64,000 nucleotides of DNA from Polaromonas sp. CF318. GTDB lineage: Bacteria > Pseudomonadota > Gammaproteobacteria > Burkholderiales > Burkholderiaceae_C. Shown piece by piece: positions 23,728 through 27,642 of the stretch. Every line of letters begins with the position of its first letter. The first letter of the stretch is position 1. The notes under the pieces are model-generated. The model was not told where the DNA came from. It did not search any database and saw only the letters and a list, made by a program, of their open reading frames with translations. A program made the position numbers and the translations under genes. The stretch is taken from positions 1 to 64,000 of the forward strand of contig NZ_AKIV01000018.1 of the NCBI RefSeq assembly GCF_000282655.1, read 5' to 3'.

Positions 23728-24627
23728 ATGACCCAACGCCTCACGCCCGCCACCGCCTCGCTGCTGGTGCTTCCCCCCATGCTCTGGGCCGGCAATGCCG
23801 TGGTGGGCCGCCTGGTCACCGGCCTGGTGCCGCCCATGACGCTCAACTTCCTGCGCTGGGCCCTGGCCTTCATGATCCTGCTGCCCTTGGCCTGGCGCCT
23901 GCTCAAACCCGGCAGCGGCCTGTGGCCGCACTGGAAGCGCTTCGCCGTGCTGGGCCTGCTGGGCGTGGGCTGCTACAACGCGCTGCAATACCTGGCGCTC
24001 AAGACCTCAACGCCGCTCAACGTCACGCTGGTGGCTTCCAGCGTGCCCATCTGGATGCTGGTGGTGGGTGCCTTGTGCTTCGGCCAGGCCGTGTCGCGGC
24101 GGCAAGTGCTGGGCGCCGTGCTGTCGATTGCCGGCGTGCTGGTGGTGCTGTCACGCGGCCAATGGGAGCTCTTGATGCAGGTGCAACTGGTGCCCGGCGA
24201 CCTCTATGTGCTGCTGGCCACGCTGGCCTGGGCGTTTTACAGCTGGCTGTTGTCGCAACCCAGGGAGCCCGCGGAGATTCGCGGCGACTGGGCGGCCTTC
24301 CTGCTGGCGCAAATCGTGTTCGGCCTGGGCTGGTCGGGGGCTTTCGCCGCCGGCGAATGGGCGCTGACCGACGCCCACATCGCCTGGGGCTGGCCGCTGG
24401 CCGCGGCCCTGCTCTATGTGGCTGTCGGGCCCGCGGTGATCGCCTATCGCTGCTGGGGCATGGGCGTGCAGCGCGTGGGCCCGGCCATCGCGGGCTTTTT
24501 CTCCAACCTCACGCCGCTGTTCGCCGCCCTGCTTTCAGCCGCCTTCCTCGGCGAGCTGCCGCACCTCTACCACGCGCTGGCTTTTGTGCTGATCGTGGGC
24601 GGCATTGTGGTGTCGTCGCGGCGTTGA
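23728..24627 (+). CDS. EamA/DMT-family transporter
   Basis: This 299-aa membrane protein has about ten hydrophobic helices in two homologous halves, each an EamA repeat. It begins with an AGNAVVGRLV segment and carries a PLNVTLVASSVPIWMLVVG motif at the end of the first half. The final segment is LPHLYHALAFVLIVGGIVV. Drug/metabolite transporters of this type export amino acids or other metabolites; the substrate cannot be read from the sequence. Monocistronic. Confidence 0.9.
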   Translation: MTQRLTPATASLLVLPPMLWAGNAVVGRLVTGLVPPMTLNFLRWALAFMILLPLAWRLLKPGSGLWPHWKRFAVLGLLGVGCYNALQYLALKTSTPLNVTLVASSVPIWMLVVGALCFGQAVSRRQVLGAVLSIAGVLVVLSRGQWELLMQVQLVPGDLYVLLATLAWAFYSWLLSQPREPAEIRGDWAAFLLAQIVFGLGWSGAFAAGEWALTDAHIAWGWPLAAALLYVAVGPAVIAYRCWGMGVQRVGPAIAGFFSNLTPLFAALLSAAFLGELPHLYHALAFVLIVGGIVVSSRR

Positions 24628-24697
24628 GGTGAGCGCAAGAAGCCGGATTCGCGCAGGTGTTCATCCGTTTATCATTCGGCGATCACTTCCACGCCAA

Positions 24698-25018
24698 ATG
24701 AATACCGATAAACCTCAAGCCAACGGTTCAGGCGAATTTAGCTTGCTGGGTTTCGCGGCGTTCCTTGTGATTGTTTCGCTATTCATGTTCGTGAGCACAA
24801 AGGCCGGAACACGTGGAGTCGGCGTCTGCGTGATAGTGGGCGCGTTGATCCAGCAAATTTCCGGCCGAATCGAATACGGATGGGAAGACCGCCCGCCTTC
24901 CGGCTACATCACCGGATGGGCAGCTGCGGTATTGAACCTTGTCTTCGGGATACTCGGCTTGGCGATGGTTATCTGGCCGGACATTGCCATGGGTATTTTG
25001 GGCTGGGACAAAAAGTGA
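24698..25018 (+). CDS. Hypothetical small membrane protein
   Basis: This 106-aa protein of unknown family begins MNTDKPQANGSGEFSLLGFA. It has hydrophobic stretches at about residues 15-35, 42-56 and 70-104, so two to three membrane helices. Base composition is lower in GC than the flanking genes, which may mean recent acquisition. No clear ribosome site precedes the ATG at 24698, and the frame is open further upstream into the end of the EamA gene, so the start is uncertain. Confidence 0.5.
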   Translation: MNTDKPQANGSGEFSLLGFAAFLVIVSLFMFVSTKAGTRGVGVCVIVGALIQQISGRIEYGWEDRPPSGYITGWAAAVLNLVFGILGLAMVIWPDIAMGILGWDKK

Positions 25019-25256
25019 TGCCGTCCAACAGGTCAATCGACACAGCCTCACACACACCACCAATCCACCGCCGGCATTCATCGCTGATGGTTTGATTTTC
25101 ACAACACTTTGCGAAAAACCATCGCGCAAAACTTGCCAAGCCCGCGCGGCCTCTTCAGAATCCCTTCCTTGCTTTGAGCCGCTGCACAACGAGCAACCTT
25201 GCGCAGCCAACCCCTTGAAGCCACCAAGACTATGACTTTGTTCACTCACACCTGAC
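25019..25256. other. Non-coding stretch upstream of the structured leader
   Basis: No plausible ORF. It should contain the promoter for the leader and the protease operon. A CTTGAAG at 25214-25220 recalls a heat-shock sigma-32 -35 box, but no matching CCCCAT-type -10 was seen at the right distance, so it is only noted. Confidence 0.3.
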
Positions 25257-25321
25257 GCACCCTCCACCGCCCCCGGCTGGATGTGGTGCCAACCACACCC
25301 AGCCCTGCGGGCGGTCGGTGC
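25257..25321 (+). ncRNA. Long branched hairpin in the leader of the AAA-M41 operon
   Basis: Nested perfect stems can be read directly. GCACC (25257-25261) pairs with GGTGC (25317-25321), ACCGCCC (25266-25272) with GGGCGGT (25309-25315), GGCTGG (25275-25280) with CCAGCC (25299-25304), and TGTGGT (25282-25287) with ACCACA (25292-25297) closing a GCCA tetraloop. Asymmetric internal loops separate them. The design, 24 base pairs over 65 bases, is too regular for chance and suggests a structured 5' leader or small RNA. No known riboswitch consensus was recognised. Confidence 0.55.
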
Positions 25322-25339
25322 CGTGCCTTCACGTGTGAA

Positions 25340-25401
25340 GCGCGCTCCGCAAACCCCAGGCTGATTTTTTTCGCCGGGGTTTTTTGCTTTCTGGAGCGCG
25401 C
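25340..25401 (+). promoter_or_regulatory. Terminator hairpin nested in an SD-sequestering stem
   Basis: The inner part, AAACCCC-A-GGC (25351-25361) with GCC-GGGGTTT (25373-25382) and a T-run to 25385, is a classic intrinsic terminator. The outer part, GCGCGCTCC (25340-25348), is perfectly complementary to GGAGCGCGC (25393-25401), which contains the Shine-Dalgarno sequence of the ORF starting at 25404. A transcript could therefore end here or hide its ribosome site. This is the layout of an attenuator or an RNA thermometer controlling the genes downstream. Confidence 0.55.
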
Positions 25402-25403
25402 AC

Positions 25404-25640
25404 ATGAGTGCCAAAACTTTTTCCCGTGACTTTGCCGCCGGCAAGGTCAAGCATTTGCGGCGCATGAAGCAGCCGCTTGCCCTGACGCTGCAGCTGCCCG
25501 CCCCGCGCAACCCCGTGGTGCGGGCGCTCGCCCAGCGTGCCGCCACGTCCGCCGCGGGCAAACACATTCGCAGCAACGGCGCCAACCGCCGGGCTGAAAC
25601 CGTGGCTTTGCAAAAAGCCCTCAAAAGATGGATTGACTGA
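25404..25640 (+). CDS. Small basic protein preceding AAA-M41 protease
   Basis: I do not recognise this 78-aa protein. It is rich in Arg, Lys and Ala (for example KVKHLRRMKQP and a C-terminal ALKRWID), has no membrane helix or Cys pair, and is predicted strongly basic. The start is supported by CTGGAG seven bases upstream. It ends one base before the ATG of the protease at 25642, so the two are almost certainly cotranslated. A role as adaptor, substrate or regulator of the protease is possible but only inferred from position. Confidence 0.6.
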   Translation: MSAKTFSRDFAAGKVKHLRRMKQPLALTLQLPAPRNPVVRALAQRAATSAAGKHIRSNGANRRAETVALQKALKRWID

Positions 25641-25641
25641 C

Positions 25642-27642
25642 ATGAAGAACGACATGACAACCGAGACGGCAGCCGCGGCCCGCGTGCCGCCTGAACTGAT
25701 GCGGGAACGCAGCGCCCACCTGGCCCAGGTCGCCGCCGAGCTGAAGACCGAGCTCTTCGGCATCGACGACATCATCGACCGGGTGATCGAATCCCTGCGC
25801 GCCTGGTATGTGCTACCCCACATCATCCGCCGCCCGGTGATCGTCTGCCTCTGGGGCCTGACCGGCACCGGCAAGACCCAGCTCACGCGCAGCCTGGCGC
25901 AAAAGCTGGGCTTTTACGACCGTTTTGTTGAAGTGCAGATGGATGGCTTCAGCAACGGCAGCAGCTGGCGCAGCGCCGACTCCATCAGCGCCATGCTGGC
26001 GGAGTCCGGCATCGCCGAGGGCGAGCCCGGCATGCTGGTGCTCGACGAGTTCCAGCGTTTTCGCACCATCGACGAAAAAGGCAAGGACTTCGCCGTCAAG
26101 CGCTACCAGGACGTGTGGCAGCTGCTGTCCGACGGTCGCCTGCCGCCATCGCTGTCCTTTCTGCAGGAGCTTGAATCGTCGCTGGCCTACTCGCTGTACG
26201 AGCATGAGCGCGAAGAGCAGGCAGATGACAAGCCCGCGAAGGACGGCACTCCGCCCAAAAAAATGAAGTTTGCCCTCTCGCCCTACCAGGCCCAGGAGTT
26301 CAAGCAAAGCCTCAAGCTCAAGGAGCCGCTGCAGGAGATCATGACCTGGGCGCCCCAACAGCTGCAGGAGCGCATGCTGGCCTTCAGGGCGTCCACCGAG
26401 TCCTGGGAGACCGACTACAGCCGTCTGCTCATCATCGTCTCGGGCAACCTCGACGAGATGTACGAAGGCATGGCCCAGCGCGTGGAAGACTGCGACACCG
26501 ATGCCGACATCTTTCACACGATGACCAAAAAGCTGTCGATGATCGACGTCAAGAAGGCGCTGGGCGAACGCTTCAAGCCCGAGCAGATCGCGCGGCTGGG
26601 CAACAACCACGTGATCTACCCCTCGCTGAGCCAAGCCACCTATGAACGGCTGATCCGCGGCACCTGCGCGCGCTATGCCGATGAAATGCGGGCCGGCGCG
26701 GGCCTGTGCTTTGAGCTGCATGAATCGGTCTACCAGGGCATTTATGCCAATGCGGTGTTTCCGGCCCAGGGCACGCGCCCGCTGTTCTCGTCCATCCACG
26801 CCATCCTGAGCGCGCCGCTGGTCAATGCCGCGTTGTGGGCCCTGGAGCAAGGCGTGCCGGAGGACGCCACACTGTACGTCACCCTGGACACGGCCGCGCA
26901 ATCCCTGCGCGTTAGCCTGGGCAAGGACGGCGGGCCCGGCATCGCCTACCCCGTGCCGCTGGAGCTCAACCAGCTCAAGCAGCGCGCCAGCCCGGACTTC
27001 CGGGCCCTGCTGGCCGTGCACGAGGCGGGCCACGGCCTGGCCTACGCGCGGCTGTTCGGCCACGCGCCACAGGAACTCAAGATCAATGTGGCTTCTTTCG
27101 AGGGCGGCTACAACAGCTATGTGCGCATGAAGGCCGAGTCGCGGCAAAGCTGCCTGGACCGCCTCTGCGTGGGCCTGGCGGGCCGCGCCGCCGAGGCCCT
27201 GGTGTTCGGCGAGGACGCTTGCACCACCGGCAGCGAAAGCGACTTCAAGAACGCCACCGCGCTGGCCGCCCGTTTTGTGCGCCACTTCGGTTTCGGCAGC
27301 CGGCTCAGCCGCACCGACGTGGCCGACAGCATCGATGACAACCTCAACACCGACGTGGCGCCGACCAATGCCGAGATAGAAGCCCTGCTCGCGCAGGCCT
27401 ACGCGCGCGCCCGCGAACTGCTCGCGGCCGACTCGGCGCTGCTGCTGCAAATCGTGGACGAGCTGCTGGCGCAAGGCCAGGTCAGCAAGGAAAAAATGGC
27501 CGGCCTGCTGGGCGTGGGCATCGCGAGCGAGGAGCGCATGCTCATGCCCTATGCCGAGCAGCTCCAGGTGTTCAGCCTGCAGCACGAGCTGATGCGGCGG
27601 GTGCGTGGCGAGGCGGCGTCCCTGGAGGCGTCGCTTGAATGA
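25642..27642 (+). CDS. Soluble AAA+ ATPase fused to FtsH-type M41 zinc protease
   Basis: This 666-aa protein has two recognisable parts. The N-terminal AAA+ module has Walker A GLTGTGKT (72-79), Walker B MLVLDE (131-136), sensor-1 Asn269 in IIVSGN, and an ERFKPEQIARLGN stretch (309-321) of the Clp/HslU type, unlike the FtsH second region of homology. A linker domain (about 330-455) leads to an M41 peptidase with HEAGH at 460-464 and the downstream TTGSESDFKNAT motif, whose Asp534 is the expected third zinc ligand. There is no N-terminal membrane anchor, unlike FtsH. Role: probably a cytoplasmic ATP-dependent protease. Downstream, a strong hairpin separates it from a convergent operon. The ATG at 25654 is an alternative start. 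Confidence 0.85.
   Translation: MKNDMTTETAAAARVPPELMRERSAHLAQVAAELKTELFGIDDIIDRVIESLRAWYVLPHIIRRPVIVCLWGLTGTGKTQLTRSLAQKLGFYDRFVEVQMDGFSNGSSWRSADSISAMLAESGIAEGEPGMLVLDEFQRFRTIDEKGKDFAVKRYQDVWQLLSDGRLPPSLSFLQELESSLAYSLYEHEREEQADDKPAKDGTPPKKMKFALSPYQAQEFKQSLKLKEPLQEIMTWAPQQLQERMLAFRASTESWETDYSRLLIIVSGNLDEMYEGMAQRVEDCDTDADIFHTMTKKLSMIDVKKALGERFKPEQIARLGNNHVIYPSLSQATYERLIRGTCARYADEMRAGAGLCFELHESVYQGIYANAVFPAQGTRPLFSSIHAILSAPLVNAALWALEQGVPEDATLYVTLDTAAQSLRVSLGKDGGPGIAYPVPLELNQLKQRASPDFRALLAVHEAGHGLAYARLFGHAPQELKINVASFEGGYNSYVRMKAESRQSCLDRLCVGLAGRAAEALVFGEDACTTGSESDFKNATALAARFVRHFGFGSRLSRTDVADSIDDNLNTDVAPTNAEIEALLAQAYARARELLAADSALLLQIVDELLAQGQVSKEKMAGLLGVGIASEERMLMPYAEQLQVFSLQHELMRRVRGEAASLEASLE

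Follow-up and report, generated by a model that had tools for sequence, protein, structure and literature searches.

What controls the expression of an operon for a predicted FtsH-like protease is the question raised by a structured leader in Polaromonas sp. CF318 (contig NZ_AKIV01000018.1, positions 1 to 64,000; this whole 64,000-nucleotide stretch is called the window). The operon comprises open reading frame 1 (ORF1) and a gene for an AAA+ ATPase with a C-terminal M41 peptidase domain (AAA-M41), and lies directly downstream of region 25133-25404. An earlier note on this DNA had described a nested stem, an intrinsic terminator and a match to the Shine-Dalgarno (SD) region of ORF1, and had suggested an attenuator, a riboswitch-like element or an RNA thermometer. 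The elements it observed are all present, albeit it missed a promoter at 25133-25161, an upstream open reading frame (uORF) at 25232-25255 and the homologues. We consider that the leader is most likely a ribosome-mediated attenuator acting on both termination and access to the SD. Our best explanation, to which we give even credence, is that a ribosome at the uORF stop turns the operon OFF, and that a ribosome held back or scarce permits the ON state; the sign of control is less sure than the attenuator class.

Leaders for comparison came from 40 matching family genomes, of which the 30 best loci were used, and from the best 80 of 114 named genome loci. The 84 rows with an ORF1 match at E <= 1e-15 yielded 70 distinct leaders, and 69 of them carry a uORF ending at the switch (61 found automatically, eight by hand); in L108, both the uORF and the segment B described below were unrecognisable. 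The uORFs of L010, L011, L014, L017, L027, L112 and L116 were set by hand, and L049 and L063 were re-anchored by hand. L093, in which the gene start was misread, was set aside with its uORF visible by eye, and L094, the gene start of which was misplaced, is counted within the 69 and left out of the set of 68 leaders used below. The uORF of the window, ATGACTTTGTTCACTCACACCTGA, encodes the seven codons MTLFTHT, and its stop codon directly precedes the structured part. Across the leaders, the uORF has 7-11 codons and ends in TGA (65/68) or TAA (3/68), with the stop adjoining the segment that we call A. A GGAG-like SD stands ahead of the uORF in 58/68 leaders, as against 6.7% of random upstream positions, a contrast that is somewhat flattered, given that starts with an SD were preferred when the start was picked; in the window, the SD of the uORF is weak. 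The uORF is presumably translated, and a short ORF between promoter and regulated structure, the first general feature of uORF attenuators, is present in the family.

The peptides themselves vary widely (e.g., MFVPLFAPA, MSSLFISTID, MSALYAAPV and MTLFTHT). As they are not conserved, the signal would be slow or impaired translation in general. The uORFs are rich in pyrimidines (C+T, 73%), and C closes the last codon in all 53 distinct uORFs; we read this as structure avoidance, not amino-acid sensing. The R/K-X-R/K arrest motif of the tlrB type was not seen by eye in any of 48 distinct peptides, in which K occurs twice and R six times. Phe is present in 61/68 peptides, mostly as 1-2 residues; seven lack it. 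Amino-acid attenuators (trp, his, ilv) combine a leader peptide with competing terminator and antiterminator; the leaders studied here share the leader peptide and the predicted competition, but no run of a single regulatory codon was found across the uORF peptides. An amino-acid attenuator was therefore ruled out on peptide composition.

In the mechanism we propose, the cis-acting leader RNA would read the position of a ribosome on the seven-codon uORF and control the operon at two levels. Segment A (25256-25271; all features given here are on the forward strand), directly 3' of the uORF stop, could pair with a decoy, A' (25279-25289, supported by pair counting), or with the SD region of ORF1, GGAGCGCGC (25393-25401, from sequence and fold). 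A' could in turn pair with A or be absorbed in the hairpin P2 (25275-25304; 25275-25287 with 25292-25304), and the stretch downstream of P2 could pair with the 5' arm of the terminator, forming an antiterminator. The OFF state would consist of P2, the terminator and a hidden SD; in the ON state, A:A' and the antiterminator would break the terminator and draw A off the SD. A ribosome at the uORF stop would cover A and prevent A:A', so that P2 and the terminator win, and a ribosome upstream, or scarce, would leave A free and permit the ON state. In the Polaromonas version, the SD would be hidden chiefly by an extension of the terminator. The predicted helices fall into two sets unable to coexist, namely P2, the terminator and A:SD (OFF) and A:A' with the antiterminator (ON); in full-length RNA, as in L022 and L032, the OFF helices together make a three-way junction. 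Comparative evidence supports the presence of the uORF at a fixed position and the competing pairings; the control logic, the signal and every functional effect we infer from the sequences.

The comparative support comes firstly from a swap test, in which native partners were compared by duplex energy with partners exchanged across lineage clusters (20,000 permutations). Under default clustering, the mean energy of native pairs was lower for A:SD (-12.65 native, -9.60 swapped), A:A' (-11.81, -8.90), P2 (-19.08, -15.41), the terminator (-19.96, -17.11) and the antiterminator (-14.27, -12.49), with 0/20,000 permutations in each case. Three control pairs gave p 0.046-0.09. With stricter clusters, P2, the terminator and the antiterminator kept p <= 5e-5, and A:A' gave p 0.008-0.012. 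The antiterminator test was also restricted to the stretch downstream of P2, with the aim of excluding a by-product of the likeness of segment B, the near-invariant CCCCGGCTG (25271-25279), to the terminator arm. The signal persisted for that stretch alone (p 5e-5) and among the 51 leaders with identical B (p 1e-4), while the control pairs in the restricted test gave p 0.82 and 0.11.

Secondly, we aligned 29 of the 35 non-redundant leaders of <=170 nt (alignment A4; L011, L014, L017, L053, L073 and L090 were omitted). A:A' was 87.1% paired in this alignment, with 25 cells changed on both sides against 7.6 after shuffling (0/500), and P2 together with the terminator was 92.2% paired, with a covariation score reached by 1/500 shuffles. 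The earlier note had made its reading depend on compensatory changes in homologues, and the homologues carry them; the attenuator it suggested is borne out by conservation and by covarying, mutually exclusive pairings, more weakly so for P2 and the terminator. Segment B is complementary to the 3' arm of the terminator, and this helix was also considered as the key one. Although it gave p 0.005 with the default clusters, and L014, L017 and L033 are compensatory cases, we rejected it: it was the sole choice of RNAalifold, yet was not significant with stricter clusters (p 0.16). Its signal may reflect the mere likeness of B to the terminator 5' arm. The pairing of the terminator extension with the SD likewise went from p 0.008 with default clusters to a non-significant p 0.17-0.28 with stricter ones.

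Mutually exclusive pairings, the second general feature of uORF attenuators, are hence found in the family, and we modelled their competition by folding 59 of the 68 leaders at the decision point, i.e., as RNA ending in the terminator loop (L055 was omitted, as the terminator caller failed there). Leaders were scored as ON-like with A:A' >4 bp and the antiterminator >3 bp, and as OFF-like with P2 >4 bp and A:A' <2. When folded from the stop codon on, with A free and the upstream part excluded, 26/59 were ON-like and 28/59 OFF-like; a ribosome at the uORF start gave 17/59 and 41/59, respectively. A ribosome on the uORF stop, covering A, left P2 without A:A' in 58/59 leaders, and this P2 formation is not by construction. 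The antiterminator exceeded 3 bp in 37/59 leaders folded from the stop codon and in 26/59 with a ribosome at the uORF start. Its mean size was 4.21 bp from the stop codon, 2.79 with the ribosome at the uORF start, 1.84 without a ribosome and 1.40 with the ribosome at the stop.

Several results weigh against this reading. With stricter clusters, A:SD weakens to p 0.003 (7 clusters) or 0.04 (4 clusters), and a control pair, Bp:SD, reaches p 0.025-0.04. In A4, both-side changes in the pairs of P2 and the terminator show no excess (3 against 2.5 after shuffling), and RNAalifold on the gapped alignment recovered neither A:A' nor P2 with the terminator, returning only B with the terminator 3' arm at a near-zero covariation term (-0.18). 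That a ribosome at the stop leaves no leader ON-like (0/59) follows from the construction of the model, in which A is masked. Folded without a ribosome but with the 5' part, just 8/59 leaders are ON-like and 46/59 OFF-like, and an antiterminator of >3 bp occurs in 12/59 leaders with the ribosome at the stop against 16/59 without a ribosome. Our first decision-point model, which counted any upstream pairing of the terminator 5' arm, was rejected, showing no ribosome effect (0.67 without a ribosome, 0.69 and 0.69 with one). The probability of the complete terminator at equilibrium is 0.88 with and without a ribosome, so that control, if existing, must be kinetic. The leader or its U-tract is degenerate in L011, L014, L017, L027, L103, L108 and L116. 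In the window RNA (L007), the ON fold is predicted under no ribosome position tried (A:A' 0 bp), and masking A leaves the ORF1 SD hidden (openness 0.00 to 0.02). The window leader is, according to the folding models, a lineage-specific form with A in a longer stem and the SD in the terminator extension. Support for the two-state mechanism thus comes from the family, and homology extends it to the window.

The anatomy of the window form is as follows. Where the earlier note had counted 24 nested pairs at 25257-25321, RNAfold gives a hairpin of 26 pairs at 25257-25326 (z = -4.9; 0/200 shuffles equally stable), and the whole leader at 25250-25410 is likewise unusually stable (z = -6.75; 0/200). 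Here segment A pairs with the outer 3' arm of the long Polaromonas stem (25309-25326), which occurs in the Polaromonas leaders L007, L008 and L037, instead of with A' or the SD. The terminator, previously placed at 25351-25385, was located at 25349-25387 (GCAAACCCC...GCCGGGGTTTTTTGC, -16.4 kcal/mol, with a U-tract). A simple consensus scan of 24500-26500 did not list it, returning two other sites where 2.0 are expected by chance. Across the leaders, a terminator is called in 60/68, and the caller, which demands just three T after a hairpin, placed one here in 60 of the 61 leaders given to it. The perfect 9-bp match is exact, joining GCGCGCTCC (25340-25348), an anti-SD extension of the terminator 5' arm recognised by fold and swap test, to the SD region; in the minimum free energy structure of the window, this pairing extends the terminator stem. 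The SD is thus predicted to be hidden in the window as claimed, but the match is not the universal mask. By prediction, the SD pairs best with the terminator extension in 28 of the 68 leaders and with segment A in 36, eight of which lack a called terminator and had no alternative scored; in the other four, the two partners are about equal. Extra stretches lie between terminator and SD in L073, L083, L086, L112, L115 and L093; the gene starts 51-106 nt past the terminator in L073, L083, L086 and L115, as against 12-28 nt in other leaders.

These SD masks bear on a second explanation, which we think rather doubtful, namely pure translational attenuation of the cat, erm or topAI sort. Stalling of a ribosome close to the uORF end would melt the helix hiding the SD, whether made by A or, in Polaromonas, by the terminator extension, and would turn ORF1 ON; the terminator would set the basal level only, and the sign would be opposite to that of our best explanation. 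That A adjoins the uORF stop and pairs with the SD in a lineage-specific manner is in keeping with this, as is the retention of A:SD complementarity across the extra stretch between terminator and SD in L073, L083, L112 and L115. When A is masked in the full-length RNA of the 59 leaders, moreover, the SD becomes accessible in many lineages: its predicted openness averages 0.31 instead of 0.14, and climbs from 0.00 to 0.70-0.78 in L032, L069, L095 and L104 (0.78 in L032). Nevertheless, masking barely opens the SD in the window and in Acidovorax-type leaders (0.00 to 0.00 in L015, 0.26 to 0.36 in L012), the covariation of A:A' and the antiterminator would be left unexplained, and the peptides lack the arrest motif.

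Our best explanation also assumes that the leader is transcribed with the operon. A sigma-70-type promoter, TTGCCA-N17-CAGAAT, lies at 25133-25161; matching 9/12 positions (1 found, 0.2 expected by chance), it is the sole sigma-70 site with this score, and transcription probably starts near 25168. The earlier note had been concerned with a start downstream of 25348; the promoter instead lies upstream, though the start itself is deduced. Promoter-like elements scoring >= 7 are found 47-99 nt before the uORF in relatives. The score is >= 8/12 in 50/68 leaders as against 6.7% of mononucleotide-shuffled regions; it is below 7 in 5/68, and 3/68 have no candidate. With the promoter upstream and like elements in relatives, the whole leader is most likely in the transcript. 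Alternatively, the ~218 nt bracketed by promoter and terminator could make a small RNA of its own that acts in trans and stops at the terminator, with the operon served by another, unmapped promoter. We regard this as very unlikely, since no further promoter of >= 7/12 (A and T of the -10 element required) was found between 25162 and the SD, the pairings include the ORF1 SD, and the leader is always attached to the ORF1/AAA-M41 operon.

The near-invariant B and the alternative folds would also suit a riboswitch-like element responding to a ligand or protein, with the uORF incidental. So would a hairpin in the 5' untranslated region, GCTGCACAACGAGCAACCTTGCGCAGC (25181-25207, from sequence). In some lineages (the window, L008, L024, L025 and L105), its loop CGANNNACC is kept and its stem varies but stays complementary, with 9 bp in L008 and 10 bp in L105; it was absent from most Acidovorax-type leaders examined. 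We find the riboswitch-like alternative suggested by the earlier note unlikely, because the uORF stands at a fixed place in nearly all leaders, mostly with an SD, and a uORF at the switch makes the ribosome a likelier effector than a ligand. In addition, Rfam gave no match at the gathering score in the window or in 8 relatives; below threshold, region 25100-25450 gave just RF02883 (14 bits against a required 40) and, from the opposite strand, RF00036 (11.3 bits against 104). A separate candidate for a general 5' motif, GCAACGANNNACCTTGC, was dropped: it occurs only once in 31 genomes (G000 and 30 relatives), G000 having a copy one base different, and is thus no common element.

An SD within a helix ahead of a protease gene might also suggest an RNA thermometer for a heat-induced protease, as had been proposed. 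However, the predicted SD opening in the window stays at <= 0.002 from 20 to 55 C; it is <= 0.011 in L008, L015, L022, L023, L032, L069 and L095 and nearly flat in L012 (0.25-0.29). The heat-shock promoter that the earlier note could not confirm was not found either, as no sigma-32-like site (>= 5/7 and 5/8) occurs from 25019 to the SD. On the predicted opening of these nine leaders and the lack of such a site, we ruled out a thermometer as extremely improbable.

As to distribution, we searched with a model, R1, built from 29 leaders; it is mainly a sequence model, since its 8 base pairs are only those of B with the terminator arm. Matches at E <= 0.01 were obtained in 66 of 399 family genomes. 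Strong matches (E <= 2.4e-9) stand at 35 places, never more than one to a genome, and cover 21 of 141 genera; we take the next match (E 3.6e-5) as noise. At least 20 of the 35 genomes match by construction, because they supplied rows of R1. All 35 places precede the ORF1/AAA-M41 operon. Twenty-six coincide with ORF1 matches, and seven and a further two were read individually, ORF1 being recognised among the seven by pattern in five and by its first codons, by eye, in two. In G851, the leader is immediately upstream of the AAA gene. Two genomes with ORF1 were poorly matched by R1 (none in G104, only E 0.0046 in G302), and their leaders are diverged or expanded (L014, L027). Of 300 genomes from the order, 27 gave a match at E <= 0.01, the sole strong one being the window. 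Of 26 AAA-M41 loci without ORF1, two carry the leader directly before the protease gene (L092 of Cupriavidus pauculus and L113 of Rhodoferax), and the other 24 gave no R1 match up to E 1. As the leader is retained where ORF1 is lost, it accompanies the protease, not ORF1. In L092 (from 2931), the first codons of ORF1 (MSA) are seemingly fused to the AAA-M41 frame after the leader.

A different leader was seen in Variovorax loci with AAA-M41 and without ORF1 (L042, L046, L047, L051, L056-L058, L062, L064, L071, L076, L084, L089 and L099). It has a conserved uORF of 30-31 aa, for example MSFLALTPLRSRCAGHALCVHGRVRLLRPA followed by a stop codon, with no visible SD, starting 210-340 nt before the AAA match and ~7 nt after a -10-like TAGGAT or TACGAT, so perhaps leaderless. 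A palindrome, GTAAATAGTCTTTAC, lies ahead of this uORF in many loci, and a terminator-like hairpin seems to come after it.

Within the operon of the window, ORF1 (25404-25640, stop codon included) encodes a 78-aa basic protein with the pattern PRNP..AL..R...AGKHIRS.GAQRRA and without a Pfam or NCBIfam match up to E 0.1. AAA-M41 (25642-27642) encodes 666 aa with an FtsH-type peptidase domain (PF01434, E 5.7e-20; PF00004, E 8.5e-7); among the best 80 of 114 loci, its nearest named locus is that of Polaromonas sp. YR568 (88% identity). ORF1 is one of a wider set of proteins in Burkholderiales that are small and basic and share the pattern PRNPxALAxRQRxAGxHxKS, found in 22/399 genomes of the order at E <= 0.001 (examples L120, L122, L123, L128, L131 and L137 among L119-L138). 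Four of the upstream gene ends in this wider set presumably belong to hslU and two to rtcB, and the hslU-like neighbours make a tie of the ORF1 set to ATP-dependent proteases possible.

Taken more broadly, we tentatively propose, as somewhat less than an even prospect, a new leader-RNA family of Comamonadaceae-type bacteria. A sequence-indifferent uORF would sense general translation speed, and a single helix, A:A', would free both an intrinsic terminator and the SD of a cytosolic FtsH-like protease operon, with SD masks differing by lineage (A or the terminator extension) and Variovorax using another uORF leader before the same protease. If true, this would connect the state of translation with a so far uncharacterised AAA+/M41 protease and the small basic protein that accompanies it, giving the operon its first functional clue. 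It would also supply one more case, backed by comparative evidence, in which termination and SD access are switched together by a single leader with no conserved peptide.

Among the papers listed by our literature searches, none describes the ORF1/AAA-M41 leader. In its working, it resembles the tlrB (yxjB) leader of Bacillus subtilis, topAI of Escherichia coli and the DUF1127 leader of Sinorhizobium meliloti, a likeness that does not amount to shown membership in any of them. The closest described system is tlrB, followed by topAI and DUF1127. The S. meliloti DUF1127 leader attenuates transcription via translation of a uORF and is a proposed monitor of ribosome availability (PMC12218461), albeit its anatomy is different. 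In E. coli, the topAI uORF toiL senses several translation stresses and alters pairing around the downstream SD (PMC12121999). The tie between a uORF and pairing around a downstream SD is shared, whereas termination in topAI is Rho-dependent and inside the gene (PMC12121999), and here an intrinsic terminator stands ahead of the SD. The tlrB leader measures 177 nt, encodes a leader peptide of 9 aa and contains both an intrinsic terminator and a hairpin that sequesters the SD; it combines attenuation of transcription and translation under ribosome control. Its signal is an R-X-R arrest motif together with tylosin, and no overlapping antiterminator was identified there (PMC6851288). Unlike tlrB, the leaders described here have unconserved peptides, covarying A' and antiterminator, and a protease operon as cargo; like tlrB, they unite a short leader peptide with an intrinsic terminator and a structure that sequesters the SD, in a leader of similar size.
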